A stretch of 45,614 nt of DNA. Origin: Candidatus Kaiserbacteria bacterium. GTDB taxonomy: Bacteria; Patescibacteriota; Minisyncoccia; Phycocordibacterales; UBA918. This document shows, piece by piece, positions 10,162 through 40,391 of the stretch (positions within the stretch are counted from its first letter, which is position 1; every line of letters starts with the position of its first letter). The notes under the pieces were generated by a model. The model was not told where the DNA came from, did no database searches, and saw only the letters and a program-made list of their open reading frames with translations. The translations under genes and the position numbers were made by a program. The stretch spans positions 1 through 45,614 of the forward strand of contig JAGQMJ010000004.1 of assembly GCA_020428685.1 (NCBI GenBank), in the 5' to 3' direction.

Positions 10162-10173
10162 AAATATAAAAAT

Positions 10174-10980: not shown

Positions 10981-10987
10981 TAGTTTA

Positions 10988-10996: not shown

Positions 10997-11030
10997 CCTG
11001 CACACACTTACTTACCGACTAACTCACAGT

Positions 11031-22393: not shown

Positions 22394-22399
22394 TTCTAT

Positions 22400-22408
22400 A
22401 TAATAGCA
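22400..22408 (-). promoter_or_regulatory. Extended -10 promoter before the DUF916-like operon
   Basis: TGCTATTAT ends 6 nt before the ATG at 22393, in the short gap after the giant surface-protein stop codon. A leaderless transcript is predicted. Confidence 0.5.
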
Positions 22409-22409
22409 T

Positions 22410-25400
22410 CTAGAACACCGGTACGGCCAGATAGACAATGTCAGTTTCGTACTCTCCGGCTGGCTGCATTTCCGTCACTAATACTCTAAATACTATATCT
22501 TCCGTTCCTCCGATTGGAAGAGAGCTGTACATAATTTCTGAAGGGGTCGTACTGAGTGCTGCATAGGTATCGGTCGGACCAAAGCGAGCTGAGCCACCCT
22601 CGAGGGTTGCGTCAGTCGTATGATACCCGACACAGCCAGTTGTCGCACCACTACAGGCTGTAGCCCATCCTGCTGGAACAGCATTACTTGAGGTAATATT
22701 ATCAATCGCAATTCCGTAGCTACTCATCATTTGTTGTCGCGCATATTGGAGCACCTGATACCCTTCTGTAGCGTTGGTGCTGACCGTGATTCTTTGGGCT
22801 GCTATCTGGTCATCATTGAACGGGATCGACCCAAACGTCACACCGGTAGCTGTAGTAGTAGCATCAGTCACTACCCCAGCTGTATTTGTGCCAGACGGTA
22901 ATCCAGAAATAGAAAACGTAAGAGCCGAGTTGCCAGACAAGACAGACGGGTAGCTCTCACCTATATCATGAGGCACGATTTCGTCATTTATTGACTTTGC
23001 AAGCCTAAAATAGTAAACAGCGCCAACTCTAGCTCCCGCTTGAGAAATAGTGAAGGAATATTCTTTGGATTGCTGTGCGCCATGAGTATGCCCCGTCACA
23101 TGAGCTGATGTTTCATTATGTGTACCACAACCATTTCCTAAACCTGAAATACATGACTCAGTGTCAGATAAAGTTGAAGAGCTGATTAAAGCATTGTCTA
23201 CGCCGCCACCATTTGTGTAGCACCACAGTGAATTCTCTACACAGGTAGTAGAAGCCACTACGTCGACAGGATTAGCGAATGATATATCATCTGAGAACTG
23301 CAGCTTAAACTTAACATCACTACCAGTGATATTTGCGCGCTCTCTTACGGTGACTCTGAGCATGAGCGTGTCATCTATTTCTATATTTGCTGGTGCAACA
23401 TTTTCATTCGCCAAAGGGCTGGTTGGAGTTTCACTGCCAACGTCGCTATACCAGCGCCAGTTCATGGTGACAGGAGAGAAGTCTGCTGTTCGTATTTGAG
23501 GATAATGCAAATATCCATCCAACGGAGAACCATCAGAAATCACCATCCTAAAACAATAAACTGTATCAGGGTTTGCTCCATTCTGCTGCACAAACCAATC
23601 GTACTCTATATCCTCTCCATCAAACACCACAAACGGGTTGGAAGCTGAGGGGTTGGTCGACTCCAAAGTACCTGCCACATCAGAAACAGAAACTAGCAAA
23701 TCTCCTGGTACTGGAGGGTCGGTCGAGAGAGCTGTGCCGTCCACAGTAGATGTGCCAACATACCCTCGCCAAATAGTTGAACTGGCGGTTTGACCAACAT
23801 CTTCCCACGTACTAACAGCAGTACAGGTCGTCAATCTTTCAGCATACTGGAGCTTAAATTGCTGGAACCCAGCCGGCATGTTGGCGTTTGAGACACGAAG
23901 ACTCATGCGGATACGCAAATAATCATCTTCACCTAGTGGAGAATCATTTGCAGTTATAGTGGTATTTTCTCCCAGATCACTGAGGCCAGGTGGCCATGGA
24001 TCTGTCGGAGTTAATGTGTCATTGTCGCTATAGAAGCGATAATAATTCTGCCGAATCGCTAAGTCAGCCACAGGCCACTGCACCAGCTCCACTCTGTACG
24101 ATAGATTCTGACCAGTATCACTACGCCATATTTCGTAAGTTGTAGTACTAGTTATTCTGGCTCCCATAATTGGTCTTGGGTAGGCATTGTTTGTTCCAGC
24201 TGCACTACTATTAACAAAAATCGAGGCATTATTCGCTGCATTTAGTGGAGTCGAGATAGCGAGCTCTATAGTCAAAGGCTCTGCTCCATTGATTGTAGAC
24301 CCGTTCTGGCGTTGGACATTCATCCCATTTGAACCAGTCTGAGTATTCTCAATCACCCAAGCTACCGATGTCTGACCAATACCAGTATCCGCTCCACTTT
24401 CAAGCTCATAAGAAACGGCCCCAATACTAGACAGCCAAACCTGATGTCCGAAATGAACCACGTTTGTACTAGCACCCATTCTTTTTTGTGAATGAATAAA
24501 AGTTCTAGCCAAAGAATTAACTGCTGTGATTGATTCTGTTTCAGCTGTTCCTGCAGCCGTGTAAGTATGCTCAGATCTTTGTACTACCCAGTTATTTCCA
24601 ACATACTCCACAACGGCATAACTCACATCCACGAAAGCGTTACCGGTTGCTCCACGTGTAAAGACTGGCTCATCACTACCAGCTGCCCAGCTAGATGTTA
24701 CCTGTCCAGCGTAGTAGTTTCTTGAAGTATTCCTATTCCTGATACCCGTTACATATACAACAACATCACTATCATCTGTCACAGAAGCAGACGTGCCCGT
24801 GGCAACCAAATCACTGTTTGTGAGAGTGATAACTCCGACGTCCCTAACTATCATTTCATTATCTGTAGAAACTGCCCCTACGAATTCAACAATCTCCCAA
24901 TCAACGAAAGTGTCTGAAATACTAGAACCTCGAGTGAATGTAATACTTGTCATAATATTACTTGGATTACTAATGTAAGCCGTCACATCGTCAGCATTCT
25001 GAGCACCTCCCGCAGTCAAGTCTCCAGCACCCGTATGATGACTGTTAGTAATTCTTACAAAAGCTTTGTTAGCAGCTGAAGGGGCTGTGTAATCGACCCC
25101 TGCAGTAATGGTAATAGACGAACCTGTAATAACTGAATTACCTCGTTGCACCTTGAAGTCACGCTTTGGAACTGTTGTAATTTCTGCATAAGTATCATAC
25201 CCCTGTAAATCCGCCCCATTGGCACTAACTCTAAAACAATAAGTAGTATTATTGAGTGCATTAGCGGTTGAAGTGATGCTGTACTCAAGATCAACATGTT
25301 CATCCGTATCTAAAGTTGTACTTGCAGTTAGGGATTCAGTATCTCTCACTCCACCGTTTGGAGTAAGGAAAGTGGTATTCTCATCTGTCACTCCTCCGAT

Positions 25401-28400
25401 TCCGTTTGCGATGTTTGTGGTATCTGAACCATTAGTTAGGTTGGCTGAGTCATACATATCCCAACCGTCCGCCACGGCATCGACATCCGTCCAAACTGTG
25501 TTCGCACTACAAGTCGTAAACTTCGGACTAAATTCAAGCCTAAATCTGGTCGGGACTGAAGATGTAGACCCTTGATTAGTAATACCAAAACGCAATCTGA
25601 TCGGGGAAGATAAATCAAAATCATTTAAAGCGGTGTCTTCTATTCCACCAGTGGCTGAAGTAGCACCTGACTCACTACCGTTGTCATTTCGCCAGTGAAT
25701 ATGCTTTACGACTAATTCACCACCGCTTAGGGTCGTCGAACCATTTTGAGTGGTTGGGATGGATGGCGCGACTGACCCGCTCGACACAATAATGTCATTT
25801 GTAGCGGAAGTAATTTCAAACTGCACAGTATCGTTACTCACAGCATCGGTAGTAATGTCCGCTACCACATAGACGCACATCGCTTGAGTGAGAGTAATAT
25901 TTACTGAACCGGTAAAGGTAGAGGTTCCGTTTGCGGCACTGAAGCCGTCTGTGTCAGTTGACCCAAACTGCGCTTCTCCCCCTCCATATGATTCACTAAT
26001 GCAATTGTAAGGACTGGTTGTATCTAGATCATAAAATAGTTTTACATTATCCAGTCCGACCGCTGCATCCACAGTGCCAATTTCTGAAATTGTAATACTG
26101 GTCACATTTCTGGAGCTAGAATTTTCTTTCAGAACAAAAGTACCTCCAAAATAAACATCAGGAGTTGGAATATCTGCTCCAGCGATAGCAGTGCCAGTGG
26201 CACTCACACGCACATCAGCGTCAATCGTTGCTGTAGGAAAAACTAAGTAATCATTGATAGGTTGACCTTCATTAGTAACTCTAAAACAATAGGTCTCTCC
26301 CTCTGAGGCAGACGTAGAAGCGACCATTGAGTACTCAACTTCCACGAATTCCGTAATACCAATCATGACTGGACTGGTGGTAGACCTTGTATCGCGCACA
26401 CCTCCATTTGATGACAAGAAAGAAGCATTCTCATCCGTCACACCACCTGTACTAACGGCGATGTTGGTTGTGTCAGAGCCGTCAGTCAGGTTTGCAGAAT
26501 CATACATATTCCACGCATCATCAGTCGAGCCCACATCTGTCCACACTGTAACATCATTACAGGTCGGCGCCGCCAAGCCGTATTCAACCTGAAAAGCAAC
26601 ATCTAGCGATGTGGTCGAACCTTCGTTAGAAATACCCATGCGCAATCTAACGGGAGTCTCCTTTGCTATTGCAAGCAAAGGTGCATCTTCAGCCCCTCCT
26701 TTAGCTGATGTAGCACCTGATTCACTACCGTCATCATTTCTCCAATGGTAGTGACCAAGCGTAAGATCCGGACTAACGATATTGGTTGTTCCACTAATCG
26801 CAACTGCTTCTGCTGGAAAGGCTGTAGTGCCAGACACAATAACATCTGTAGATGGGTCAGATATTTCTATAGCCATAGTGTCACCAGAATCAGCATCAAC
26901 CAAAATGTCTAGCACGGTATACAGACACAGTGCCTGGGTCGGCCCAATACTGGCAATAGTACCAGCAAAAACAGAACTTCCGTCTGGCCCGGAAAAACCA
27001 TTTGCATCTGTCCCTCCGTACTGTGACTCAGTCCCGGCGTAAGACTCACTAGCACAGTTGTATGGAGCAGAAGTGTCGTACTCGTAGTACATTTTGATAT
27101 TGGCCAGCTCAGTCTCACCGTCTACTGTACCCTTCTCGGTTATTCTGACAGAAGAAACCGTTCTCGAAGTGATACTTGTAACAGCAAATTTACCTCCGAC
27201 GTACAAATCGGTACTAGGTGACCTAGCTTCAGAAACTATCGCTCCAGATGCCGTCACCAGAGTATCGGGGCCGATGTCTGCTACAGTATCACCAACTCTG
27301 TCGTCGGCTGTTGGTCCCCACCAAGTCACATACATACGCTCGTAGTTGTTAAGCGTTAAAATAGGCTTTCCAAAATCATCGCCAGATGCATTTAACGGAC
27401 CATGCTCAGCCCCCCAAGTTGTCATTCCATCAGTTGAAGTAGCCCAATAGATATTACCAGTCAAAGAATTACCAATCGTATCCTCAAGGACGTAGGCTAT
27501 GTAAATATCACCATTATTTTGGTCATAACCAATTGTGGCTCCATGAAGACCTCTACCAGCAATATTTGTAAAGACATCGGTGGTATTAGTCCAACCAACC
27601 CCGTCATAAACAGCCGAACGCAAATCATGATCGGCTGTATTCATGTCATTATTATCAGCAGAGTAAAGTAAATATATGTAACCAGTATCAATATCTATAG
27701 TAGCTGATAAGCCTCCATCATATGTCGCACTCTCAACCGCGTTTGCATCAATTGTGTTCCAGGCTGACCAAGAACTTCCGTTCCAAATAGATGATCGAAT
27801 ATCATTAGCAGACACATCTCGATTAATCACCAAAACATTTCCCCCACTAAGCGGCATCATCAAATTGTGATCAGGTGAAAAATCAAACGGGGTTGTACCC
27901 ACCTCATTCCAACTAGTCGTTAAATTACAACTCGAAGAGCAAGACACAGCATAAGAATCTGATCCGTCATTAACCGCCATGTACACCTCACCATCAGTAG
28001 CAACAGTAAGAGAATGTGTGTTTACGTTTGCAGAAATCGTGGGAGACTGACCAGAATTAATTGAACCATTGGTAGGTGAACTCCCCATCAATAGCGTGTC
28101 GGTAGTCGTATCGAGTCTATTGTAAAACAAATCATCAAGACTACTGTCCATGGTGGCAATATGGATATAGTTACCAGTACTTCCCGGAGTCCAACGATCA
28201 TACCAAACCACAATTTTCAAACAGTCAGTCTGGCTATCAACCAAAACAGTTGAGCCCCAAGTATCACCCCCATCGGTGGTTTTTCGGTAAGCACACTGAC
28301 CAGTACTGTCTCGATAAAATGTATATCCAGTCTGATCACTAATGAATACGTTTTCAGAACCGGTGATGTTGTGTGAGCCGGAGTTCGTTGTAGCAGTACT

Positions 28401-28550
28401 ATCGATTACCACTCTAGCAGCCTCCACATGCATTGGATACAACAAAACCAGTTGCACAAGCAACACTCCAAACACCTGCAACAGCATCGACATCATGACG
28501 AATACTGAAACAGCATTATTAACACGTTCTAAAACACGCAGTTTATACAT
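22410..28550 (-). CDS. Giant secreted repeat protein with Asp-box region
   Basis: 2046 residues, the largest gene here. A long hydrophobic N-terminal segment (about 12-45, ending HVEAA) acts as a signal or anchor. Residues 50-430 contain Asp-box motifs (TTDGGDTWGS near 92, TSTDGMTTWG near 378), typical of sialidase-like beta-propellers, although no catalytic residues can be assigned. About 440-1130 holds two copies of a roughly 340-residue module, each including HWRNDDGSESGATSA-like and YDSANLTDGSDTTNI-like segments and a YCFRV motif. Looser copies of its second half occur near 1500-1800. The C-terminus (FGSIPFNDDQIAAQ ... VYLAVPVF) matches the end of the small secreted protein at 34940-36085. 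AGAGGA and GGAG precede the ATG. It follows the TolB-like gene by 34 nt. An adhesin-like role is inferred. Confidence 0.85.
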   Translation of the reverse strand: MYKLRVLERVNNAVSVFVMMSMLLQVFGVLLVQLVLLYPMHVEAARVVIDSTATTNSGSHNITGSENVFISDQTGYTFYRDSTGQCAYRKTTDGGDTWGSTVLVDSQTDCLKIVVWYDRWTPGSTGNYIHIATMDSSLDDLFYNRLDTTTDTLLMGSSPTNGSINSGQSPTISANVNTHSLTVATDGEVYMAVNDGSDSYAVSCSSSCNLTTSWNEVGTTPFDFSPDHNLMMPLSGGNVLVINRDVSANDIRSSIWNGSSWSAWNTIDANAVESATYDGGLSATIDIDTGYIYLLYSADNNDMNTADHDLRSAVYDGVGWTNTTDVFTNIAGRGLHGATIGYDQNNGDIYIAYVLEDTIGNSLTGNIYWATSTDGMTTWGAEHGPLNASGDDFGKPILTLNNYERMYVTWWGPTADDRVGDTVADIGPDTLVTASGAIVSEARSPSTDLYVGGKFAVTSITSRTVSSVRITEKGTVDGETELANIKMYYEYDTSAPYNCASESYAGTESQYGGTDANGFSGPDGSSVFAGTIASIGPTQALCLYTVLDILVDADSGDTMAIEISDPSTDVIVSGTTAFPAEAVAISGTTNIVSPDLTLGHYHWRNDDGSESGATSAKGGAEDAPLLAIAKETPVRLRMGISNEGSTTSLDVAFQVEYGLAAPTCNDVTVWTDVGSTDDAWNMYDSANLTDGSDTTNIAVSTGGVTDENASFLSSNGGVRDTRSTTSPVMIGITEFVEVEYSMVASTSASEGETYCFRVTNEGQPINDYLVFPTATIDADVRVSATGTAIAGADIPTPDVYFGGTFVLKENSSSRNVTSITISEIGTVDAAVGLDNVKLFYDLDTTSPYNCISESYGGGEAQFGSTDTDGFSAANGTSTFTGSVNITLTQAMCVYVVADITTDAVSNDTVQFEITSATNDIIVSSGSVAPSIPTTQNGSTTLSGGELVVKHIHWRNDNGSESGATSATGGIEDTALNDFDLSSPIRLRFGITNQGSTSSVPTRFRLEFSPKFTTCSANTVWTDVDAVADGWDMYDSANLTNGSDTTNIANGIGGVTDENTTFLTPNGGVRDTESLTASTTLDTDEHVDLEYSITSTANALNNTTYCFRVSANGADLQGYDTYAEITTVPKRDFKVQRGNSVITGSSITITAGVDYTAPSAANKAFVRITNSHHTGAGDLTAGGAQNADDVTAYISNPSNIMTSITFTRGSSISDTFVDWEIVEFVGAVSTDNEMIVRDVGVITLTNSDLVATGTSASVTDDSDVVVYVTGIRNRNTSRNYYAGQVTSSWAAGSDEPVFTRGATGNAFVDVSYAVVEYVGNNWVVQRSEHTYTAAGTAETESITAVNSLARTFIHSQKRMGASTNVVHFGHQVWLSSIGAVSYELESGADTGIGQTSVAWVIENTQTGSNGMNVQRQNGSTINGAEPLTIELAISTPLNAANNASIFVNSSAAGTNNAYPRPIMGARITSTTTYEIWRSDTGQNLSYRVELVQWPVADLAIRQNYYRFYSDNDTLTPTDPWPPGLSDLGENTTITANDSPLGEDDYLRIRMSLRVSNANMPAGFQQFKLQYAERLTTCTAVSTWEDVGQTASSTIWRGYVGTSTVDGTALSTDPPVPGDLLVSVSDVAGTLESTNPSASNPFVVFDGEDIEYDWFVQQNGANPDTVYCFRMVISDGSPLDGYLHYPQIRTADFSPVTMNWRWYSDVGSETPTSPLANENVAPANIEIDDTLMLRVTVRERANITGSDVKFKLQFSDDISFANPVDVVASTTCVENSLWCYTNGGGVDNALISSSTLSDTESCISGLGNGCGTHNETSAHVTGHTHGAQQSKEYSFTISQAGARVGAVYYFRLAKSINDEIVPHDIGESYPSVLSGNSALTFSISGLPSGTNTAGVVTDATTTATGVTFGSIPFNDDQIAAQRITVSTNATEGYQVLQYARQQMMSSYGIAIDNITSSNAVPAGWATACSGATTGCVGYHTTDATLEGGSARFGPTDTYAALSTTPSEIMYSSLPIGGTEDIVFRVLVTEMQPAGEYETDIVYLAVPVF
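25160..26170 (-). repeat. Internal module of the giant protein, copy 2
   Basis: This stretch encodes the second copy of the approximately 340-residue module: a YFGGTF...ISEIGTVDAAVGLDNVK half and an HIHWRNDNGSESG...YCFRVSANG half. It aligns with 26170-27230. Boundaries are approximate and drawn from the translated sequence. Confidence 0.75.
26170..27230 (-). repeat. Internal module of the giant protein, copy 1
   Basis: First copy of the module: a YVGGKF...ITEKGTVDGETELANIK half and an HYHWRNDDGSESG...YCFRVTNEG half. Similarity to copy 2 is obvious in protein and patchy in DNA, so the duplication is old. Each copy keeps the same Cys positions (YNCxSESY, TQAxC, PTCNDV/TTCSAN, YCFRV). Confidence 0.75.
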
Positions 28551-28584: not shown

Positions 28585-30426
28585 TTATTCTTGAGCAGTC
28601 TGTGAACTTGTCGCTGATTCTGGGTCAGGTTCAATTGGCAAAATAACTAAATCAGGAATTGTTGAAGTAGCCACAATATCTGGTGTGATAATCTCTGATA
28701 TATCAGGCGTACTTGTAGCCCTCAAATCAAGGGTGCTTGGAGCATCAACCCCTACAACCTCAGGAGTACTTGAGGCGTTACCGTCAGTCGGAGGTGTAGA
28801 TGAAGAATTAGTAACATCAGAACCCTTAGGACTTGGTTTTGACTGAATCAAGGCTCTAGTTTCACCAGTCGAATCTGTTTCAGGTAATTCGTCTGGCAAC
28901 TGTCTAGGTATAGACTGCAAAGGTACAATTTTGCCAGACACCAAATCAAAACCTTTCATCACAACATCACCGTTTTCATACATAGCTTCATACATCACCA
29001 CCATTCTAGGATTTGATACTGAAACCCCATCACCATCCTCGATTGTCGTGTAGGTGCGATTCTGAATATCGTATGTTTTTAGTGACTGCGTACCGTCATT
29101 TGAGCGGCTATTCCAAATAACCAAAGGCCCTCTAACATGAGGTGCTATGTCATGCCGAGGAGAATCTGTAATCTGTCTTTCGGTACCAGAGTTATACAAA
29201 ATTACCTCCCAATTATTTTGAACCCATCTTTGCCAAACGATGTAATCACCATGTCTGGTTGGCTCCATATTATTTACAAAACCATCGGTAATTTGAACCT
29301 CATCGCCAGTTTCTATGTCGTATGAAATAATCTGATATCTATCATCGACTAGTCTGTGCCAAACGATAGTTCTTGAGTACTCATCATAAAACGGTGAAGC
29401 ATCATCAACTTTATTGTGAGTAATTTGAGTCTGCATCCCATCTCTTACTAAAAAGATTTCCAAGTCACCATCACCATCCGGCAGCGCAACTAAAGAGTCA
29501 TTGAGCGGTAATTCGCCACTAGACTTCTGACAATAGAAGGAACCATCTTCTATTCGGGTACATTCATTCTCATTAAATGTAAAGCTTGAATCGCTCTCTA
29601 CTACTGACACAAATTCTCCATCATTCAAAGCTTCAGTTTCCTCATCTTCAAGCAAAACATCTTGTGAATCCTCCAAATCTTCTTCAGCACCAGAGTCAGC
29701 ATCATGACCTGTACCTGAATCACTAGATACTGAAACTATTGCGTCTTCCTCACCAGAAGCATCAACATCATCTTCATCAGACGAATTATCATTTGCTGGG
29801 ACTTCATCTTCTGAAGCAGATCCGCCACCATTTTGAGCTGACTGACCTGTACTTGTAGCAGCGGTCGAAGAAGCTATTGCTTCACTTGATGAGGCAGAAA
29901 CATTGCCGACAGTAGTGACAGTAGATGAACTTTGTGAAGAGTCTGCACTTAAATCTTCATCTTCTTCAATAACTGCTGACTCAATAATCTCATCAGAATC
30001 GACAGCATTATCAGAAACAGCAAGCACACTGCTGGAATCATTTGCAGTGTCACTTGTTTTAACTTCACCCTCTTCAGGTGGCGATATATCAGCGGCAGGT
30101 GGCGGACTTTCTTCAACAAAGCTTACTTCAGGAGCTTCTGCAACAATTGTTACTTTCGGAGGCTGCGGCACTTCAGGCTGAGCAACTGGTTCAACTTCAT
30201 CAGCATAAACATTCTGGAAAGGCTGAGAGAGGAAGCAGACACACAATAAAAGCGACAGTAATACTGCCTTTCTGGACATGAAAACTAATTTGTACAAGAG
30301 AACAGTTTCAGTTACAGAAGTAACTGTGCCAATATCAAATACCCTAGCAGAACACTTATTTTCAAAGCGTACAGAACTAGTTTTTAAATTGTTTTTATCT
30401 TCAGTTTTTGAACTTCTACGTGACAT
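28585..30426 (-). CDS. Secreted TolB-like beta-propeller protein with acidic low-complexity region
   Basis: 613 residues from the ATG at 30426. A hydrophobic signal segment (MSRKAVLLSLLLCVCFLS) begins about 50 residues in, so either the N-region is unusually long or translation starts at the internal ATG at 30279, giving about 560 residues. About 200 residues of Ser/Glu/Asp-rich low-complexity sequence follow. Then come TolB/WD40-like blades with repeated patterns such as DGDLEIFLVRDG, TIVWHRLVDDRYQIISYD, YIVWQRWVQNNWEVILYN and VIWNSRSNDGT. The C-terminus is Pro/Ser/Thr-rich without a clear anchor. It directly precedes the giant protein gene, so the two probably act together. Propellers of this kind usually bind proteins or sugars; the ligand is unknown. 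Confidence 0.8.
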   Translation of the reverse strand: MSRRSSKTEDKNNLKTSSVRFENKCSARVFDIGTVTSVTETVLLYKLVFMSRKAVLLSLLLCVCFLSQPFQNVYADEVEPVAQPEVPQPPKVTIVAEAPEVSFVEESPPPAADISPPEEGEVKTSDTANDSSSVLAVSDNAVDSDEIIESAVIEEDEDLSADSSQSSSTVTTVGNVSASSSEAIASSTAATSTGQSAQNGGGSASEDEVPANDNSSDEDDVDASGEEDAIVSVSSDSGTGHDADSGAEEDLEDSQDVLLEDEETEALNDGEFVSVVESDSSFTFNENECTRIEDGSFYCQKSSGELPLNDSLVALPDGDGDLEIFLVRDGMQTQITHNKVDDASPFYDEYSRTIVWHRLVDDRYQIISYDIETGDEVQITDGFVNNMEPTRHGDYIVWQRWVQNNWEVILYNSGTERQITDSPRHDIAPHVRGPLVIWNSRSNDGTQSLKTYDIQNRTYTTIEDGDGVSVSNPRMVVMYEAMYENGDVVMKGFDLVSGKIVPLQSIPRQLPDELPETDSTGETRALIQSKPSPKGSDVTNSSSTPPTDGNASSTPEVVGVDAPSTLDLRATSTPDISEIITPDIVATSTIPDLVILPIEPDPESATSSQTAQE

Positions 30427-30427
30427 T

Positions 30428-30472
30428 TTAAGGCTCAACCAAATAGTTGAAGTGCCATATTATTCCCATCAC
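30428..30472 (-). CDS. Possible 14-codon leader peptide before the TolB-like gene
   Basis: GTG at 30472 lies 6 nt after an extended -10 element and opens a 14-codon frame (MMGIIWHFNYLVEP). Its TAA stop is 1 nt before the ATG of the TolB-like gene, in a different frame. The geometry would couple translation of the two. A reading frame this short can arise by chance. Confidence 0.25.
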   Translation of the reverse strand: MMGIIWHFNYLVEP

Positions 30473-30538: not shown

Positions 30539-31285
30539 CTACTTGAAGAAAAAATCAGCCAATATTATAGAAAAATCTCTAAAGGTCATCTGGCCATCAC
30601 CATTAAAATCATATTTGATCTTTTTATCATTCCAAGCAGCCATAAAAGCACTAATATCTGAGAGAGAAACCTTTCCGTCCCCATTTATATCTGTCACAAT
30701 TTTTACTGCTACATTTACTCCAATACTGTCTAGGTTGGTATTTTCATCGTATACATAAAGACTAACCTTGGAACTATCAGACTCCTTTACTGAGACAGAT
30801 GTACCCTTTCCATCGCCTGCTAAAAGAACAACACTGGTTGCAGAGAAACTGTTTTGACCAGTAACTTTTGCCTTTAAATCAATTGAGGCAATTTTATGTT
30901 CACCAATGAATCCTTTCCGGTAAGTACCCCCTCTCAAAATCACCCTATCATCCTTAATAATTGGATCTTGGGTCCAAATAGTCAAAACCGATTGCCCCCT
31001 ATCAACGGCCAAGACTTGCACGGCGTTTGATTCAAACTGCAAAGTAATATCTACTGCATTGACAGGTACGTGGGCACTGGCATAAACGTCTATCGTAAAT
31101 CTCTGACCAGCCTCCACAGTCGAGGCAGAAGTTGCTAGTCTGACATAAGACACTCCACTATTACTAACCGCAGCCGCTCCGAGAATAGTAGCGAAAGTCA
31201 AAAGCGCGGGGAACATATACCGAACCGTACCACTCCTTTGTTGAGTTGAAAACAAATTTTTGAAGTAGTAAATGATTCGATTCAT
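30539..31285 (-). CDS. Cohesin plus dockerin protein, membrane anchored
   Basis: 248 residues. After an N-terminal membrane segment (about 24-42), residues 50-170 form a cohesin-type beta-sandwich with VNAVDITLQFESNAVQVLAV, SVLTIWTQDP, IILR-like strands and LAGDGKGTSV. Residues 193-240 form a dockerin with two calcium-binding loops, DINGDGKVSLSD and DFNGDGQMTFRD, separated by a helix. Cohesin and dockerin are the interacting halves of cellulosome assembly, and here both sit in one chain, allowing chain growth or adaptor behaviour. It is the last gene of the cohesin operon, 6 nt after the preceding gene. Whether this cohesin binds its own type of dockerin is unknown. Confidence 0.88.
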   Translation of the reverse strand: MNRIIYYFKNLFSTQQRSGTVRYMFPALLTFATILGAAAVSNSGVSYVRLATSASTVEAGQRFTIDVYASAHVPVNAVDITLQFESNAVQVLAVDRGQSVLTIWTQDPIIKDDRVILRGGTYRKGFIGEHKIASIDLKAKVTGQNSFSATSVVLLAGDGKGTSVSVKESDSSKVSLYVYDENTNLDSIGVNVAVKIVTDINGDGKVSLSDISAFMAAWNDKKIKYDFNGDGQMTFRDFSIILADFFFK

Positions 31286-31291
31286 GTTTTG

Positions 31292-31978
31292 TTATAGCGA
31301 CAGTAGGTCTGTTCGTAGTGTTGTAGCTTGTTGGCGCGCAACCAATAACGACTCTTGAACTCCACTAACTTCAACTAAAATTCCGACAATCTCATCTGAG
31401 CTAGCACTCTTTCCTTGTAGAAGGTTTGAAATGATTTCATCTTGAAGAGTAACAAGCTTAGAAAACAACTCGCTCTGCTTATGCTCCAAATCTGACAGCT
31501 CATGCCAATTAGAGACCTTGTAGTCCTCAAATTTATCGTCTCCAGAAATCAAACTTAGCTGGTCAACATAGTCTTCATAAACCTCAATCTCACGAGTAAA
31601 CCTGGAGACCATAACAGACTTTCTCTCCGCAAAGAAAGAGCCACATCTTCCGAACAATCTTTCTAACTCAACAAGTTGCGAATGATTAAGACCATCATTG
31701 AGTCGACTTAGTAAGTAATCAAAACTCTCTCTCTCATCTACTGAGCAGTCACGAACGATTGATTCAGTAATTTGATCAGCACCATTACGGGCTGTAGTTT
31801 CAGCAATCGCTACCAACAAAGTTTCTTGATCTGATATCTTCACCTCAGTAGCCAGCTCAAGTTCACTAAAACGACTATCAACAAGGACTGACACCAACCA
31901 CACCATCAGCATCACACCAACTAATAGAAAAACGAGATTCTTTGTATTCAACCATCCTGATTTATTTTCTGTTTGCAT
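31292..31978 (-). CDS. Membrane-anchored helical protein of unknown function
   Basis: 228 residues with one N-terminal membrane helix (about 14-31) and an otherwise helical, charged extracytoplasmic region with coiled-coil tendency. Two Cys are 40 residues apart (RDCSVDE and GRCGSFF). No family is recognised. It lies inside the cohesin operon, 10 nt after the second cohesin gene and 6 nt before the cohesin-dockerin gene, so it is probably a structural or spacer component of the same assembly. Confidence 0.75.
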   Translation of the reverse strand: MQTENKSGWLNTKNLVFLLVGVMLMVWLVSVLVDSRFSELELATEVKISDQETLLVAIAETTARNGADQITESIVRDCSVDERESFDYLLSRLNDGLNHSQLVELERLFGRCGSFFAERKSVMVSRFTREIEVYEDYVDQLSLISGDDKFEDYKVSNWHELSDLEHKQSELFSKLVTLQDEIISNLLQGKSASSDEIVGILVEVSGVQESLLVARQQATTLRTDLLSL

Positions 31979-31988: not shown

Positions 31989-33752
31989 TTAATCTTTCTT
32001 TTTTGTTAATTCTGTAACGTCTTCAATCTCTTTCTCAACTGCTCGCTGTGAATTTTGCAATGCTCTATCTAATATTTCTATCATATCAGATTCAGCCTTA
32101 GTGAGCTTTTTAGTTTTTCTTGACGACTGCATCAGTGATTCCTGCTCTCTTAACATACCTTGTAGTGAAGAGAATTCCCTGTGGAGTATTTCCAAAGCCT
32201 CAGTAGATTCAATCTTAACCTTCTTCCTAAACCGACGGAAATAAACAAACATGTACCATGTGCCGATAAATAAAGCGAAGAGCAAAATCACAAGTGGCAC
32301 CACGACAGACAGAACACTAATAATCATAGAGCCAATCTTGAGGTAGCCAGGCTGCTGCACAGCAATCCTGATAACATTTGAAACTTCACTTTGAGCACCA
32401 AATTCATCTGTCGCCTGAGCTGAGAGTTCATAAACTCCATTAAAGAACTTACCCTCAGGAATAAAGATAAACTCTCCCGTCTCGTCTGCTATCACTGTAT
32501 ATACAGAAGGATCTCCACCAACCCTCTTCAGTATCACATCTACCGATGCTCCAGCTCTGGTCAATCCTTTAATTACAGGAATCACTTCTTCATTAATCTC
32601 AGACGGATATTCTGTGAAGGCTGGCTTACTAAAAGCTTCAATAGTAAATGAGTATGTACCCACAATACTGTTACCAGCCTCATCAAAAGCTTCAATGATA
32701 ACTGAGTGGTAACCTGGATCTAATGCTGGCAATGAGATAGTGCTTGAACCTTTTTCGTCCACGTAATCAAAAGGTTCACTTGCATCAAGTTTAACTTTGA
32801 ACACCTTAACTTCAGACGTCTTGTCAGTCACCTGAACTGAAAGCACTTGGACTGGATTGTTCAAATCTGAATTTTCAGAGTGTTTAATATCAATCTTAGA
32901 AGGGTTCTCTGAGTCAACTGCTAGACGATAGTGAGCAACCTTACCCCAGCCGTCAGCATTCTTGAATTGAATGTGGAAATAAGAAACACCTTCATCCAAA
33001 TCTGTAAGAGATATTTCCTTGATAGGACTGTCGTACACTTTGGTTGGTATGGTTGTCGGATTTGAATCAAGCAATGTCCTCACTGCGGTCACCCCAGCAG
33101 GTAGCGACCAGCTAAGTACCGCGTCTTTTGACTTAGACCAAAACTTTGGGTCGCCGTGGGTAGTAGAAGTAATGACCGGAGCTGCCGGCGTATTGGCTGG
33201 TGCAACGTACTCAATTATCTCAGGTTCTGGTGCAGCAGATTGCGCCTGAATGGTGTATGTTCCACCATTCATGGCAGTGAGAATATTTGTCCCTTTGCCG
33301 TCATTTGCTAAGACTGAACCATTCTTAAACGATACTCTAGCAGTACCAGCTCCAGCCGCTCGAAATGTTACATTCATGATGGTTCCAGTTTGACCACTAT
33401 AGCCAGAAGGCAATCCACCACTGAAATTTATAGTCCCTGCGCTGTTTGAGAAGGTCGGCTCTGTAACCCAAAGATTAAAAATCGAATTATTTCTGTTGAC
33501 CGATACTACCGAAAGCTCGCGGGGATTGAAAGATAAAGAACCCTCAGCAGCGTTTACAGACTTGCCATCGGTATTAACCAGAACTCTGACTGAGAAGGTG
33601 CCGTTGGCGGAATACACTCCGGTACTTGGCGACAAAGAGAGCGAGGCTGCATTCGCGAAAGCATAACTGGCCAAAAACAATAACAGAGACAGGAGTGAAT
33701 ATGCGAGAAGTTTTAGTGATAAGATACCGGGTTTTGTAATCTGTGTATTCAT
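31989..33752 (-). CDS. Cohesin-domain membrane protein with cytoplasmic coiled coil
   Basis: 587 residues. A signal peptide (about 15-36, ending AFANAAS) precedes a cohesin domain at about 37-170, with VNAAEGSLSFNPRELSVVSV, SIFNLWVTEP, INFSGGLPSGYSG and LANDGKGTNI. Two or three Ig-like domains follow to about 465. A membrane helix (about 475-500) is followed by a basic stretch (YFRRFRKKVK) and a helical cytoplasmic tail of about 85 residues ending in a Lys/Glu-rich coil. It is thus a cohesin receptor spanning the membrane. The ATG comes 4 nt after the preceding cohesin gene and overlaps no other frame. Confidence 0.88.
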   Translation of the reverse strand: MNTQITKPGILSLKLLAYSLLSLLLFLASYAFANAASLSLSPSTGVYSANGTFSVRVLVNTDGKSVNAAEGSLSFNPRELSVVSVNRNNSIFNLWVTEPTFSNSAGTINFSGGLPSGYSGQTGTIMNVTFRAAGAGTARVSFKNGSVLANDGKGTNILTAMNGGTYTIQAQSAAPEPEIIEYVAPANTPAAPVITSTTHGDPKFWSKSKDAVLSWSLPAGVTAVRTLLDSNPTTIPTKVYDSPIKEISLTDLDEGVSYFHIQFKNADGWGKVAHYRLAVDSENPSKIDIKHSENSDLNNPVQVLSVQVTDKTSEVKVFKVKLDASEPFDYVDEKGSSTISLPALDPGYHSVIIEAFDEAGNSIVGTYSFTIEAFSKPAFTEYPSEINEEVIPVIKGLTRAGASVDVILKRVGGDPSVYTVIADETGEFIFIPEGKFFNGVYELSAQATDEFGAQSEVSNVIRIAVQQPGYLKIGSMIISVLSVVVPLVILLFALFIGTWYMFVYFRRFRKKVKIESTEALEILHREFSSLQGMLREQESLMQSSRKTKKLTKAESDMIEILDRALQNSQRAVEKEIEDVTELTKKKD

Positions 33753-33756: not shown

Positions 33757-34821
33757 CTATTTTAATTCTTCATTATCATCGGTCTCATCTTCATAACCAT
33801 CATCTTCTTCACCATCAATCAGGGTAGCCTGAGTCTTTCGACGTCGATATCTCCAAACCACCACCAATGCTACCAAGAGGACGATTGATGCGATAACGAT
33901 CAAAGAAGTAACTAACTGACCTCTCGAAATGGTTCTCATCGAGTCATCTGGTATCAGGTTGGCGATGTACTCATTACCAGCTTTATCGATAGCCTTTACT
34001 CTAATAATACTATTCAAAGATTGGTCTTCGAGCACATGGAAAGGCGGCTGCTTCACTCTCAACCAAGGCGCATCCGCTCTTCCCCACTGAAAAGTACCAA
34101 ATTGGGTCAATGGCTCTTCCATTACTTCGTAGTGATCAACACCAGTTTGTTTATCGGTGGTTTCAAACGCTACGTAATATTTACCATTAAAAGCTTTTTC
34201 GTCCTTCTGCAATGACAAACTAAACTCTTCTGGAGGTGTCTTATCATCAGCCACCTCACCCTTCCAATCATTAACCATCACAGTACCTGGCTTTTGACTC
34301 AATTCAATTTTTGAGCCGTATAGTGCCAAATCAGCTTTTGTCCCCCTGCCGTCATTTAGGTAAGCTGTTGTCTCTGGACCAAAACTTACTTCAGCATTTG
34401 TTTCTGAACTACCGCCAATACTAAACCCAGGTGAACGAAATACGATTCTTGTCAGAACATTTGTCAGTCGTGGGTCACCAATCACACGTCCGCAGTATCC
34501 ATTTGGGATCCCGCCAGCAAAAGTAATAGTCTTATTCTCACGGTTAATAACCGGCCTTTCAACCCACATACTCAAAATTGAGTCTCCAATAGAAACATCC
34601 ACCGGCTCAATATTGCTTGTATATGTAATGACAGCATCTACTGCATTGACACACTCACCTACTTCTTCGTCAGTATCAAGTCTTATAGACATCGTTATCG
34701 CGTCACCTCGGTTGAGAGTCTTAATAGCTGGATCAATATATAAAGAAGCTGCTTCGGTAAAACTAGCAGGCTGCAAGAACACAACAAGAGCCATCACAAA
34801 AAATAAGCGCACGAAATTCAT
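33757..34821 (-). CDS. Cohesin-domain membrane protein
   Basis: 354 residues. The ATG at 34821 begins with a signal peptide (MNFVRLFFVMALVVFLQP). The cohesin domain (about 25-170) shows VNAVDAVITYTSNIEPVDV, SILSMWVERP, ITFAGGIPNGYCG and YLNDGRGTKA, matching the two other cohesins of the operon strand by strand. An extra Cys pair (GECVNA, GYCGR) may add a disulfide. A second beta domain follows, then a membrane helix near 305-325 with an RRRK stop-transfer and an acidic tail. The frame stays open to 34872, but that extension enters the upstream terminator. It is the first gene of the cohesin operon. Confidence 0.87.
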   Translation of the reverse strand: MNFVRLFFVMALVVFLQPASFTEAASLYIDPAIKTLNRGDAITMSIRLDTDEEVGECVNAVDAVITYTSNIEPVDVSIGDSILSMWVERPVINRENKTITFAGGIPNGYCGRVIGDPRLTNVLTRIVFRSPGFSIGGSSETNAEVSFGPETTAYLNDGRGTKADLALYGSKIELSQKPGTVMVNDWKGEVADDKTPPEEFSLSLQKDEKAFNGKYYVAFETTDKQTGVDHYEVMEEPLTQFGTFQWGRADAPWLRVKQPPFHVLEDQSLNSIIRVKAIDKAGNEYIANLIPDDSMRTISRGQLVTSLIVIASIVLLVALVVVWRYRRRKTQATLIDGEEDDGYEDETDDNEELK

Positions 34822-34827
34822 ATTCTT

Positions 34828-34836
34828 ATTATAGCA
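34828..34836 (-). promoter_or_regulatory. Extended -10 promoter of the cohesin operon
   Basis: TGCTATAAT, with a perfect -10 hexamer, ends 6 nt before the ATG at 34821. It directly follows a terminator, so a promoter is required here. TCGACA lies 19 bp upstream of the hexamer as a possible weak -35. The mRNA should be leaderless. Confidence 0.6.
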
Positions 34837-34870
34837 AGCAAACCAAAAAATATGTCGACTGTTCACATAC

Positions 34871-34902
34871 AAAAAACCCCTCTCGTGGTGGGAGATAGGG
34901 TC
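34871..34902 (-). terminator. Terminator of the small secreted protein gene
   Basis: Minus-strand RNA forms ACCC/GGGT plus TCTC/GAGA pairing around a 7-nt loop, followed by six T residues. It separates the small secreted protein gene from the cohesin operon. Confidence 0.75.
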
Positions 34903-34939: not shown

Positions 34940-36085
34940 TTAGAACACTGGCGTTGCTACGTATGTCAATGTAGCGGTGTAATCTTCTGCAGCCTCTTGA
35001 AGGGCTGTAGTTTCTACTTTGTAAATGACGTCGGCATTACCTTCGCCAGATACAGTTCCGTCTGATGGTCCATCGTGTCTGAATACTTCAACAGGTGTTG
35101 TAGATGCAGATACGAAGTTGTCTCCCCCTGAGAAAAAGTCTGAAAGACCGCCAGTTAGAGTTGTGTCGTTAGACGACAGACCCCAGTGACCGTATTCATT
35201 TTCTGCTCCAGGAGTCGCACCCGGTGATTCCCATGCTACAGGTGTAGTATCGTAGCTTCCATCCCGGAAACCATCGATATCTGCGCCATTAGCTGAAAGA
35301 AGTTGTTGATCTACTTGTACTGTAACTACAAAACCATTTGCAGCGTTTGTGGACACTTCTAGGTTTTGTGCAGCTGTACTTGCAGTATCAGCAACCAAAG
35401 TTCCAAATGGGATAGCAGTAGCTGTAGTGTCTCCACCAGTTGTGTCAGCTGTGTTAACCAGCGTTCCGTCTGCTACTCCATTTACTGTGAAAGTAAAAAG
35501 TGTATCAACAGAGGCTGTAACTGTAACTGCATCAACGATAGCTACTCTAGTCTTACCAGTATCACCTGCCCCGACAGTCAATTCAATTTCGTATGAAGTG
35601 GCTGAACCTGGGTTTGTGATTTGGTTTGAACCAGTTGAACCAAAGGTAGCATTTGTTCCGATTTCGATGATAACTGTTTGACCAGCACCAACTGTGTCTG
35701 TTCCACTTTCGATGTCAATCACTTGACCCGCAGCAGTAACATTCCAGTTTGCACCAGAAGCAGCACCATCAATCAAATCTTCGTCTGTACCATTAACCCT
35801 AAGGTCAAGGTCAGCTGCTACCAAACTTCCAATGCCAGTAAATCCAGCAGGGAAAGTCAGACTAATAATTTCACCAGCTGAGAGACCTGTTGGGGTCACG
35901 AACTCAATGGTGTGGTTAGCGACAACACTGGGAGCTGAGTCCGATAGTGTATCACTGTAAGAGGTGACATTAGCAGCTTCCGCAAAGCGGAGTGAAGGTA
36001 GGCCAAATGACCATAGAAGAACGGCCATGACTACAATCGCTGCAGTTGCTTGGAGTACAGAGAACGAGTTATTTGCTCGATTCAT
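34940..36085 (-). CDS. Secreted Thr/Ala-rich surface protein with WxL-like C-terminal domain
   Basis: 381 residues. A signal segment (about 10-38, ending AEAAN) precedes a beta-rich domain (about 40-190) with regular TG/AG turns. The C-terminal part (about 200-381) has IPFGTLVADTASTAAQNLEV, STNAANGFVVTV and ends YTATLTYVATPVF. The end matches the giant protein C-terminus (VSTNATEGYQV ... VYLAVPVF). The overall pattern of an FG.i strand, a ...GW/GF-type strand and a final YT.TLT strand recalls WxL cell-wall domains, although the WxL motif itself is absent. The protein has no Cys and a regular composition, so it could be an abundant subunit of the surface layer. It has a long upstream region with a GATAAT hexamer 14 nt before the ATG and its own terminator. 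Confidence 0.82.
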   Translation of the reverse strand: MNRANNSFSVLQATAAIVVMAVLLWSFGLPSLRFAEAANVTSYSDTLSDSAPSVVANHTIEFVTPTGLSAGEIISLTFPAGFTGIGSLVAADLDLRVNGTDEDLIDGAASGANWNVTAAGQVIDIESGTDTVGAGQTVIIEIGTNATFGSTGSNQITNPGSATSYEIELTVGAGDTGKTRVAIVDAVTVTASVDTLFTFTVNGVADGTLVNTADTTGGDTTATAIPFGTLVADTASTAAQNLEVSTNAANGFVVTVQVDQQLLSANGADIDGFRDGSYDTTPVAWESPGATPGAENEYGHWGLSSNDTTLTGGLSDFFSGGDNFVSASTTPVEVFRHDGPSDGTVSGEGNADVIYKVETTALQEAAEDYTATLTYVATPVF

Positions 36086-36351: not shown

Positions 36352-37455
36352 TTATCCTGTCCAATTGAAGAGCAAAATTGAAAAATCTTCCAAGCTTACC
36401 CGCCCATTTCCGTTAATATCAGCTGGAGGATTTGAATCACCACCATTTGTCTGCCACCAGAAAATAAGAATTGAGAAGTCAATCAAATTTATAGAGCCGT
36501 CGCGATTCAAGTCTGAAGGTGAAGTAGTTTTACCATCAACACCCACAAAAAGCTGTAGTGAGGAGCTAAAGCTACTCTGAGTAGTCAAAGGCGGCGTACC
36601 GACGACACTACGCGCTCTCATAGTGTGTTCTGCGATCGATAGTCTACTAGTATTGAAGTTCACAGACCAGTCACCAGCAGCACTAGCTGTCGTATTTTCA
36701 ATTATTTGACCGTTATTGAAATGAAGTTGTACCGCACTGTTGGGAACAGCGAATCCAGAAACCAAAATATTATCTCCTGGGTTTACATTTTGATTCGCCA
36801 CTTTTATTGTTGGCGGCAATACAATGCCGTTAATATTTGTAATTGCCCCTTGAGTCACGTCAAAAGTGTTGTTGAGTGTAATTGAGCGAGTTCCAGCACT
36901 GTCTGTTGCCCATATACCAAGTGTAGCTGTTCCGGGTGACGCTTTAGCGGAGAACTCAAAATTACCTGAGCTGTCAGAACGTACATTACCAACACTAACA
37001 GTATCTAAAAGAAAGTTAATGGTTCTGGTCGGGTAAGCTTTTCCTTTGATACTAACGAGAGTATCTCCAAGATCTTTTGTTCCTCCACCACCACCTGAGG
37101 AACCACCACCAGAAGTACCCCCACCACCTGAACCGGCTGGCTCAATCTTACAGATAGACGAACAAAAGTCTCCATCATCGTTGTTTCCGTCGTCACACTC
37201 CTCAGAGTAAATAGTTTGTAAAATTCCGTCGCCACAGTACGGTCCAAAAAAACACTGCGGTGTACATTGTCTACCAGCAATAGTTTGGCTATAGACACCC
37301 ACTTCACCCAGCACGTCACAGTCCTCTCCCCCGTCTACAATTTCATTTCCACAAATGCTGATAGTGATAGTAGTAGTAGATACCAAAGCTGCATTGCTGA
37401 CAGAGGGAAAGCTTAGCGAAACTAAGAATAAGAAAAATAGAATTATAGCTCTCAT
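36352..37455 (-). CDS. Secreted dockerin protein with Cys-rich N-terminal domain
   Basis: 367 residues from the ATG at 37455, which begins a signal peptide (MRAIILFFLFLVSLSFPSV). Next comes a DUF4215-type Cys-rich region (ICGNEIVDGGEDCD, YCGDGILQ, EECDDGNNDDGDFCSS) with about ten Cys, a Gly/Ser linker near 110-130, and two beta domains. The end is a C-terminal dockerin with two calcium loops, DLNRDGSINLID and DINGNGRVSLED, each followed by FSIL.F.W. It has no membrane anchor, so retention at the surface would depend on the dockerin meeting one of the cohesins encoded at 30.5-34.8 kb. No catalytic motif is seen. It starts 1 nt after the DUF916-like gene, so translation is coupled. Confidence 0.87.
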   Translation of the reverse strand: MRAIILFFLFLVSLSFPSVSNAALVSTTTITISICGNEIVDGGEDCDVLGEVGVYSQTIAGRQCTPQCFFGPYCGDGILQTIYSEECDDGNNDDGDFCSSICKIEPAGSGGGGTSGGGSSGGGGGTKDLGDTLVSIKGKAYPTRTINFLLDTVSVGNVRSDSSGNFEFSAKASPGTATLGIWATDSAGTRSITLNNTFDVTQGAITNINGIVLPPTIKVANQNVNPGDNILVSGFAVPNSAVQLHFNNGQIIENTTASAAGDWSVNFNTSRLSIAEHTMRARSVVGTPPLTTQSSFSSSLQLFVGVDGKTTSPSDLNRDGSINLIDFSILIFWWQTNGGDSNPPADINGNGRVSLEDFSILLFNWTG

Positions 37456-37456
37456 A

Positions 37457-38410
37457 CTATCTGCGTACTGGGCGCATCTTGCGACGCGCATGCCAGACAT
37501 AGATACCGGCTATCATTACTGCAAACACAGGCAATAAAACAGAGATCTTGTGTGCTATAGATAGACCGATAAAACCAAATCCGGCTAGCTGCAGTGTGCC
37601 AGCTGGCAAAACATTTAAACTCAAGTCACCTTCTTGCTTTATATCATCGCCATTGAAAATCTTGTAGCGTGCAATGTAGCTTCCGGCTGGAAGTTTTGTC
37701 GGCAATTCAGCTGTGACAGTTTCTGTACCATATGGTGGTATTTTTGGAATCTTTCCAATCTGCTTTGTTTCTTCAAGCAAAACTTTTCCGGCTCTATCAA
37801 AAATCCTAACATCTACTTTAGATGGAGACACATCGACGTTTCCTGTATTCTCAATCAACATATCAAATCGAATCTTTCCAGGGAAGAATAGCCAACCAAA
37901 CTTAGTTCCTTCATTAAGGTCACCAACAGAAATTTTTCTTACTCTAAAATCTTTAATCTCTCTATCAATAACAGAGAGATCAATGTCAACCAATGCACCT
38001 AGTGAAATATTGACTGCTCCTGGAGACACCTGGTCGTTATCAGGCAGGGTTCGGATACGGATAGCCCCTTCGTAGTCTTTGAAATCAGCATTTGATGGCA
38101 CCTTGATTCTTACTGTCATTGGCACCTTCTGAACACCTCGAGGCATCTTAATTTCATCACCTTCGACCACCGTTACCCAGTCTTGTATCTCTGGTGCATC
38201 AATAGTGATCTCTGCCTTCTGGGCGATATTGGACTCACCACGGACAAGCAGAATCTGCTGCTCATAGGTAGAGTTCCTAGTGAGGCTAGTATTTCGTACA
38301 TATGGTGGAGTAATACCAAAACCTGCGAACACTTCAGTCACACCCGTACTTAAAAAAAGTACCGGCAAGAACAAACCAAACACAACCCACTTTCGCAAAT
38401 TCACATTCAT
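37457..38410 (-). CDS. DUF916-like surface protein with C-terminal membrane anchor
   Basis: 317 residues. A signal peptide ends near TEVFAG (about 30). Two beta-sandwich units follow, with FGITPPYVRNTSLTRNSTYE, MPRGVQKVPMTVRIKVPSNA, DYEGAIRIR, and LIENTGNVDVSPSKVDVRIFD, the layout of the DUF916/WxL-interacting family. A membrane helix near 285-305 ends in a basic tail (HARRKMRPVRR). AGAAGGA 7 nt before the ATG is a good ribosome site. It is coupled to the dockerin gene, suggesting the pair functions together. The third DUF916-like gene of the window. Confidence 0.84.
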   Translation of the reverse strand: MNVNLRKWVVFGLFLPVLFLSTGVTEVFAGFGITPPYVRNTSLTRNSTYEQQILLVRGESNIAQKAEITIDAPEIQDWVTVVEGDEIKMPRGVQKVPMTVRIKVPSNADFKDYEGAIRIRTLPDNDQVSPGAVNISLGALVDIDLSVIDREIKDFRVRKISVGDLNEGTKFGWLFFPGKIRFDMLIENTGNVDVSPSKVDVRIFDRAGKVLLEETKQIGKIPKIPPYGTETVTAELPTKLPAGSYIARYKIFNGDDIKQEGDLSLNVLPAGTLQLAGFGFIGLSIAHKISVLLPVFAVMIAGIYVWHARRKMRPVRR

Positions 38411-38507: not shown

Positions 38508-40391
38508 TTACCAGTCAGCCGGTTCTGCAATCTTTCCGACAAATGTGTTGAGTCCGGTGTAATTACCTGCCAATGTGATAGTTATCGGAACTGCAATACC
38601 CCAATAAGTATCCTTCGTAAGTTGTGTTGAAGTAGCTGAAGTTTGATTAACATTAATCTCTAGCTCTTGTGCTGTCGATGAGGACAGAGTCAATGCTTCT
38701 GGTCCAGCATAAGCAAATAATGTGGACGTACCGAATTTTTGCTCACTTTCAGGAATTGTTGATGTAGCTGAAACAGGACATTCTGTAGCAGGTGTAAATG
38801 TCCCACACATAGACTCACCTTGTATCTCTTGGTCAATACCTGTGTTTCCTTCATTGACTATGGTTGATGTAGCTATAAGCGTTCCTGTGTCATTTCCAGG
38901 CTCAATACCTCCGTATACAATTTCTGTTGCAAGGATATTGATTGACAAGTAACTGATAAGTTCTACTGGAGCAGCTGTAGCGACAATTGTACTGGAAGCA
39001 CCATCATCATCTATGCCGCTGATAGCTGCTGACCAAGTGGTTGCATCCTGTGCTGCTGGAGTACCACTGTCTGTTGGGTCAGCCACAAACCAAAGCGGGA
39101 ACGTACAAGAGTAATCCATGTAATCCTGTGTTGGGCTAGCACATGTAGAAGTTGCTGTACAAGACAAATTCCAAGTCGTGGTAGCAACAGCGCTGTCGTA
39201 ACAGTTATTAGGATTATAATTTGCACCAGTTCCGTTACATGTGGTTGTACCTATGTCAGTCCTATAGACCAAAGCAGTGAATCCAGCAATTTCATCTGTA
39301 GTTGATGCAGCTGTCAGACAACTGTTAGCGTCATGGATAGTGAAGTTCAGAACACTACCTGGTGTTTCTCCAGCAGGTACTGAAAGAGTCAAATCAGTAC
39401 CAACTCCTCCAACACCGTACAACTCTACTTCTGCACTCAACACAGTTGGTGCCACGTTGTTTACGTCAAAGTTTGCTTGAAGTGGGTTGGCGGAAGCTTC
39501 ATGACCGTGAGAGTCAACTATGTAGCCATAAGCAGGATAAGTATCGTCTCTAATAATTGCCGGCAAAGTAAATGTTGCACTAGCATCACTCAAGACGGTG
39601 ATCGTTGTTGATGCTAAAAAGTTTGAGTCACAAGTGTTTGTTACAGGATTGTAATCAGTATTTGTCTGACAAACAACAAGGTAGATACTGTCTTCCCCAC
39701 CAACGATATCTGGGTCGGAAGAAGTCGAGAAGAATGTAAGAACTCCAGCTGGGTCAACCGGACCGTTGTTTGCAAAATTATTTAGAACTGGTCGTGAGTT
39801 CACATGGAACGGAGAAGAGTTAGTTGCGCTGTATCCTTGTACTGGGACAGTATTACATCGAGGATTTGATGGGTCGTCGTCACACACCCAAGCAAACCAA
39901 GTATTAACCTCTGCAAACGGTGCAGCCTCAGTGGTCGTGGTCGATACTGTTGCTAGAGTATTACTAACTGTAGCTGTTGATACACCCCACTGTACACCAC
40001 CTCCACAAGCAGGAGCAGCTGTTCCTAAGCTAAAGATGTCAGCCGCGGCATTAGCTGTTGGTGACGCGTTGGTGCTACATATAAGGAGGAAATATGGTGC
40101 ACCGTTACTGTCGCCACCCAAAGCAGACCACACGATTGCATCACCTGAGTTGGTAGGCGTTGAGGTGGATGACTCAGTAACCTCATAAGCATCGATCACA
40201 AATGATGGCGGCGTATTCAAAACCGTCAGCGTTGTGGTTGCTGTCTGAGCCGACACCTTACTTAGCTCCTTTGAACCAAAGTCAAAAACAAAGGCCATTA
40301 CAAATACTAATAAACCCGCCAAGGCAGTCACTACTGTGATTTTACCGGCGGTACGCATATAGCGTGGGAACTCATGATTGTTGTACGACAT
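38508..40391 (-). CDS. Secreted Thr/Ser/Ala-rich surface protein, paralogue of the right-edge protein
   Basis: 627 residues with a signal or anchor segment near 17-38, then repeated beta domains rich in Thr, Ser, Ala and paired Cys. The C-terminal 250 residues align with the gene at the right edge: NNCYDSA/NNCYIAT, FVADPTDSG/FHADPTDQDG, VELISYLSINI/VELLTLRALDV, and the end YWGIAVPITITL...TGLNTF versus YWGIEVPFGTAS...TGTNYF. The function is unknown; the paralogy and secretion suggest a structural surface role. No Shine-Dalgarno is visible; the upstream region is AT-rich with a TACAAT hexamer about 30 nt before the start. It has its own strong terminator. Confidence 0.8.
   Translation of the reverse strand: MSYNNHEFPRYMRTAGKITVVTALAGLLVFVMAFVFDFGSKELSKVSAQTATTTLTVLNTPPSFVIDAYEVTESSTSTPTNSGDAIVWSALGGDSNGAPYFLLICSTNASPTANAAADIFSLGTAAPACGGGVQWGVSTATVSNTLATVSTTTTEAAPFAEVNTWFAWVCDDDPSNPRCNTVPVQGYSATNSSPFHVNSRPVLNNFANNGPVDPAGVLTFFSTSSDPDIVGGEDSIYLVVCQTNTDYNPVTNTCDSNFLASTTITVLSDASATFTLPAIIRDDTYPAYGYIVDSHGHEASANPLQANFDVNNVAPTVLSAEVELYGVGGVGTDLTLSVPAGETPGSVLNFTIHDANSCLTAASTTDEIAGFTALVYRTDIGTTTCNGTGANYNPNNCYDSAVATTTWNLSCTATSTCASPTQDYMDYSCTFPLWFVADPTDSGTPAAQDATTWSAAISGIDDDGASSTIVATAAPVELISYLSINILATEIVYGGIEPGNDTGTLIATSTIVNEGNTGIDQEIQGESMCGTFTPATECPVSATSTIPESEQKFGTSTLFAYAGPEALTLSSSTAQELEINVNQTSATSTQLTKDTYWGIAVPITITLAGNYTGLNTFVGKIAEPADW

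Follow-up and report, generated by a model that had tools for sequence, protein, structure and literature searches.

A predicted membrane-anchored cohesin-dockerin protein in a surface operon of a Candidatus Kaiserbacteria bacterium, and two classes of cohesins and dockerins within its genus

Results

Genes of the operon

We analysed a stretch of 45,614 nucleotides (the window) from the genome of a Candidatus Kaiserbacteria bacterium of the Patescibacteria, assembled into 64 contigs with a total of 808 kb and estimated to be 88.5% complete. The window contains an operon of surface-protein genes in the order H-G-F-E-D-C-B-T-I-J-K-L, all on the reverse strand. Gene T (30539..31285, ATG at 31285, stop at 30539) encodes a 248-aa protein with an anchor, a cohesin and a dockerin. 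It is adjoined upstream by B (31292..31978), a 228-aa protein with a transmembrane (TM) segment, a helical bundle and the conserved residues Cys78 and Cys112. The bundle was modelled with confidence (pLDDT 89.5), and a known sensor fold was considered for it and rejected, as no solved structure matched at E<=0.001. C (31989..33752) consists of a signal peptide, a cohesin, Ig-like domains, a TM helix and a cytoplasmic coiled coil, and D (33757..34872) of a signal peptide, a cohesin with two extra cysteines and an insertion, and a TM helix. In both proteins the cohesin is N-terminal and the TM helix C-terminal. F (36352..37500) is a secreted Cys-rich/Ig-like protein that ends in a symmetric dockerin (36355-36519).

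The other members of the operon are the surface proteins E (34940..36085) and H (38508..40391), an Ig-like protein with a C-terminal TM segment (G, 37457..38410), a low-complexity and β-propeller-like protein that directly follows T in most loci (I, 28585..30438), a giant surface protein of 2046 aa (J, 22410..28550), an Ig-like TM protein (K, 21386..22438) and a protein with a LytR_C domain (L, 19780..21438). The operon thus holds three cohesins, as the earlier note had counted (C, 33246-33659; D, 34300-34761; T, 30770-31156), and two dockerins (F and T). The D cohesin had no Pfam cohesin match, and no enzymes were found in the operon. Elsewhere in the window, adjacent genes at 6347-11007 encode a histidine kinase, a TSP3/Ig-like surface protein of 826 aa and a double response regulator.

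E and the C-terminal domain that J has in common with it weakly resemble the C-terminal pilin domain of the CPR Pam pilus. E, its second-locus counterpart E' (described below) and the J C-terminus matched the NCBIfam model of the Pam pilus pilin subunit (NF058581) below its cut-off of 55 bits (19.7 bits for E, and 21.9 bits for the best match in the genome), and 9 of the 11 E orthologues matched it too, the best with an E value of 5e-7. The operon proteins scanned had no match to the other Pam pilus models. It is therefore from a weak profile resemblance that we regard it as plausible that the operon builds a pilus-like surface structure. A WxL/WxLIP surface cluster was considered and found little support: the single match was a sub-threshold WxLIP_PGBD (DUF916) domain in L (23.5 bits, cut-off 27.3), and the 11 E proteins had no match to the WxL domain.

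Cohesins and dockerins elsewhere in the genome

Part of the operon set is repeated at a second cohesin/dockerin locus on contig C64 (L006, 4808-11615). This locus holds E' (4808-5947), a DUF916-like protein, the dockerin protein F', which has a region resembling the N-terminus of E, an Hsp20-like protein of 157 aa and the cohesin protein C'. Both cohesin/dockerin loci of the genome hold a protein with such a weak match to NF058581. The genome has three dockerins above the cut-off (T, F and F') and four cohesins (C, D, T and C'), one per chain. In this 88.5% complete genome we found no dockerin-bearing enzyme, and of the features that define a cellulosome, neither dockerin-bearing glycoside hydrolases nor a multi-cohesin scaffoldin.

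Domain structure of T

T carries one cohesin and one dockerin in a single chain, which is the layout of an adaptor scaffoldin. Its hydrophobic helix (31163..31228, about residues 20-41) follows a basic N-terminus with a TVRxxF motif, a stretch conserved among T proteins. The helix is preceded by four positive and no negative residues, and by 4-8 positive residues among T proteins generally, for which a conserved signal-peptidase site was not found at the TM helix. The segment reads as an uncleaved signal anchor, which would place the cohesin and the dockerin outside the cell. The cohesin (30746..31159, residues 43-180) is joined by a linker (30695..30745, residues 181-197) to the dockerin (30545..30694, residues 198-247).

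The dockerin matched Pfam PF00404 (E value of 3e-6, 27.8 bits, cut-off 22.9, residues 198-241), as did all 12 T orthologues scanned. Its two F-hand calcium loops present D199, N201, D203 and D210, and D226, N228, D230 and D237, at ligand positions 1, 3, 5 and 12; the six aspartates are invariant in an alignment of 12 T sequences. Profile score and loops together indicate a type I dockerin (PF00404) with putative cohesin binding. For the cohesin, Pfam PF00963 gave no match to the window T protein at E<=1 and matched 3 of the 12 T orthologues, the best with an E value of 6e-7. An AlphaFold2 model of the single chain, built from 21 orthologues (mean pLDDT 76.8, pTM 0.54), showed a helix at residues 20-40, a jelly-roll at about 46-180 with pLDDT mostly of 80-91, a low-confidence linker (pLDDT about 47-57) and two dockerin helices. 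The best solved match of the jelly-roll was the cohesin 2vo8 (Z score of 16.4, RMSD of 2.4 Å over 130 residues); the non-cellulosomal cohesin 2xdh from Archaeoglobus fulgidus scored a Z of 15.8, and nearly all of the top 50 structural matches were cohesins. The predicted fold of the T β domain is clearly the cohesin jelly-roll. Searched against PDB sequences, the cohesin profile gave just partial matches, to a scaffoldin cohesin of R. flavefaciens. Invariant residues of the T cohesin are N76, W104, GGT 119-121, GF 125-126, H130 and AGDGxG 156-161. The open reading frame, the PF00404 match, the modelled jelly-roll and the hydrophobic segment confirm the earlier description of the 248-residue T as essentially anchor, cohesin and dockerin.

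Conservation of T and its locus

Relatives recovered by protein search carried the labels Ca. Kaiserbacteria, Paceibacterota or Parcubacteria. T was present, as a single copy each, in 21 of the 38 genomes of the genus. Comparison of 20 T loci from a second collection of Patescibacteria genomes showed B directly upstream of T, and C directly before B, in all 20. The whole order from H to L was kept as far as the contigs reach, except in one rearranged locus (L071). Since the T orthologues, at 41-65% identity, keep this gene order, the T reading frame is not a chance one. In the OLB19 genome (L072, 10001-10675) T is broken, and its frame lacks the second F-hand. Several genes nearby are split as well, perhaps through sequencing error.

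The core of F (dockerin), D (cohesin) and C (cohesin) also occurs without T in other families of the order. Cohesins are frequent beyond the genus: at the thresholds used, a profile of fused chains matched in 100 of 297 genomes from the order and in 110 of 384 from the class, mostly to C-type proteins. Short TM-cohesin-dockerin chains were also seen in other families of the order (L116, 1426-2142; L114, 1414-2175; L119, 1468-2187; L110, 1486-2250). About 15 genomes of the genus have lone genes, not part of a surface operon, for TM-cohesin-dockerin proteins of 239-264 aa (loci L040-L047, L095 and L098). We call these paralogues of T by the name T2; their identity to T is about 27%.

Two classes of cohesins and dockerins

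The dockerins of F and F' are symmetric, with a repeat spacing of 29-31 and a helix-to-helix identity of 0.70-0.73 over seven residues. Those of T and T2 are asymmetric: in each of the 23 examined the spacing is exactly 27, and the helix identities are 0.19 (T) and 0.22 (T2). In a tree of 49 dockerins over 55 columns, T and T2 stood apart from the F types with support of 97/96 from a bootstrap that had not settled. The exceptions were L116 and L119, very long-branched fused chains that fell on the F side; both modules of L116, itself on a long branch, grouped with the F/C class. In a tree of 70 cohesins, C, C' and D formed one clade (96/93), which persisted in a second tree with the longest branches dropped (96/91). 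The cohesins of T (99/99), T2 and most other fused chains lay outside it. The cohesins and dockerins of the genus thus form two classes, T and T2 on one side and the F dockerins with the C and D cohesins on the other.

In solved complexes, symmetric dockerins have dual binding modes and asymmetric dockerins a single one (PMC5429695). Taken together with the spacing, the helix identities and the split in the trees, this makes it unlikely that the T dockerin shares the partner of the F dockerin. The earlier note had proposed that the T dockerin could fit the cohesins of its operon and so extend chains or link two membrane receptors. This proposal was weakened, given a T dockerin unlike the F/F' type and a T cohesin outside the clade of C, D and C'. 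Class membership is not the same as specificity, as a fused gene inherits both of its domains together whatever partners they bind. In a mirror-tree (distance-matrix) comparison of dockerins with cohesins (n = 15), no partner reached significance once the species signal had been corrected for (all p > 0.09).

A genome with a single cohesin-dockerin chain

In one genome of the genus (G048, 98% complete, 1% contamination), the matches at E<=10 were limited to a lone cohesin and a lone dockerin, which share a 244-aa T2 chain. The calcium loops of this dockerin are intact, and G048 has no homologue of E. Because the sole cohesin and the sole dockerin sit in one chain, the predicted pairing of this dockerin can only be with its own kind or with a non-cohesin partner, and the case concerns T2 rather than T. 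G012 was considered as a second such genome and rejected, because contig ends interrupt its E gene and operon genes may be missing.

Ten genomes had T but no T2, and five had T2 but no T. In the genomes with T and without T2, the other cohesins were C, D and C', apart from one extra divergent match in G022, leaving the T cohesin with no other clear member of its class beside it. G048 and the ten T genomes without another detected fused chain indirectly favour the other proposal of the earlier note, that the T dockerin may fit its own cohesin and T could then polymerise. As the chain is anchored, the product would be lateral rows in the plane of the membrane and not a free polymer.

Discussion

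Pairing of T with itself and its rivals

We tentatively favour, at a little short of an even chance, a non-cellulosomal role for T as a membrane-anchored link protein that forms rows of T on T, with F docked on C and/or D and F not bridged to C by T. The dockerin of one T would bind, in a single orientation, the cohesin of a neighbouring anchored T, or that of T2 where present, and F' and C' would make the same type of pair as F and its receptor at the second locus. T-T pairing is preferred to an adaptor role between F and C or D on the basis of the two classes, the tree splits and the single chain of G048. Since the chain is membrane-anchored, the product would be lateral rows, dependent on calcium and lying head to tail in the membrane plane, where they may cluster or brace the apparatus. 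That T and T2 each join head to tail through their own cohesin and dockerin into calcium-dependent surface rows is possible, with the balance somewhat against it. In cellulosomes, a scaffoldin typically uses its dockerin to bind cohesins that sit on a different protein.

The main rival, and a serious one, is a pair between the T dockerin and the D cohesin. The T dockerin would sit on the D (or C) cohesin in the same membrane while the T cohesin takes another dockerin, so that T would be an adaptor that cross-links receptors. The Ruminococcus adaptor scaffoldin ScaC works in this adaptor manner (PMC5429695). D and T share the operon and co-occur, and the D cohesins of T-bearing operons carry two extra cysteines (in the motifs ECVN and GYCGR) and an insertion. 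Both motifs were present in 19 of 20 such D proteins, the exception being truncated, and the cysteines and insertion were missing from all six D proteins examined from loci without T. Moreover, F' would pair with C' at a second locus that lacks D, which leaves the D cohesin without an obvious dockerin. However, the change in D is probably a single event in one lineage, other families also have D alongside dockerins that are all of the F type (L050, L051, L053 and L054), neither module of T belongs to the F/C/D classes, and G048 offers its T2 chain no further cohesin as a partner. We consider this arrangement rather unlikely.

The choice left by G048 also includes a non-cohesin partner. The T dockerin might be a calcium-stabilised fold that grips another surface protein, such as B, or the cell wall; B always adjoins T, and a dockerin-like sequence is no proof of cohesin binding. 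We judge this improbable, as cohesin and dockerin co-segregate in one chain across families and the intact paired F-hands of T have the look of cohesin-binding dockerins. Docking in cis is more doubtful still. Modules of the same class in one chain, with a linker of about 17 residues that could reach the chain's own cohesin face, would allow the dockerin to fold back into a capped or latent form, opened by loss of calcium or by a competing partner. However, the pTM of 0.54 and the linker pLDDT of about 47-57 gave no sign of a fixed arrangement in the single-chain model, which is uninformative on how the two domains are placed.

Meaning of the operon

The genomes of Patescibacteria are very small, and many of these bacteria attach to other cells. 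A conserved operon that encodes three cohesins and two dockerins along with a giant pilin-like adhesin offers a concrete and testable case of surface assembly in this group, in which T may tie the surface apparatus into rows and not hold enzymes. If T pairs with itself, it would be a natural example of a cohesin-dockerin polymer that assembles itself, and would give protein engineering a useful orthogonal pair.

Comparison with known systems

ScaC of Ruminococcus flavefaciens is described as a monovalent adaptor scaffoldin (PMC5429695, PMC4959524), and T resembles it as a short chain with one cohesin and one dockerin of the single-mode type. However, ScaC is a cellulosome component with a dockerin of the enzyme-borne group and a cohesin that takes enzymes, whereas T is membrane-anchored, its genome showed no dockerin-bearing enzyme, and its dockerin differs in class from those of F and F'. 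Archaea and bacteria are already known to have non-cellulosomal cohesins and dockerins (PMC9012536, PMC9705933). With the ORF2375/ORF2376 pair of A. fulgidus, T shares a cohesin fold close to 2xdh, a non-cellulosomal setting and few modules with no polyvalent scaffoldin; the pair used experimentally there joins the dockerin of one chain to the cohesin of another (PMC9705933). T differs in being TM-anchored and in lying within a possibly pilus-like operon. ANME archaea likewise have non-cellulosomal cohesins and dockerins in surface proteins, with both in some chains (PMC9012536), but those chains hold up to five cohesins, whereas T has one, together with an N-terminal anchor and a fixed operon. 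The likeness to the CPR Pam pilus lies in the weak pilin-domain matches of E, E' and the J C-terminus, all of them below the curated cut-off. Our literature search found no paper on the Pam pilus system, and no earlier description of a cohesin/dockerin surface set in Patescibacteria. What is new here, beside these systems, is the occurrence of two cohesin/dockerin classes within one genus.
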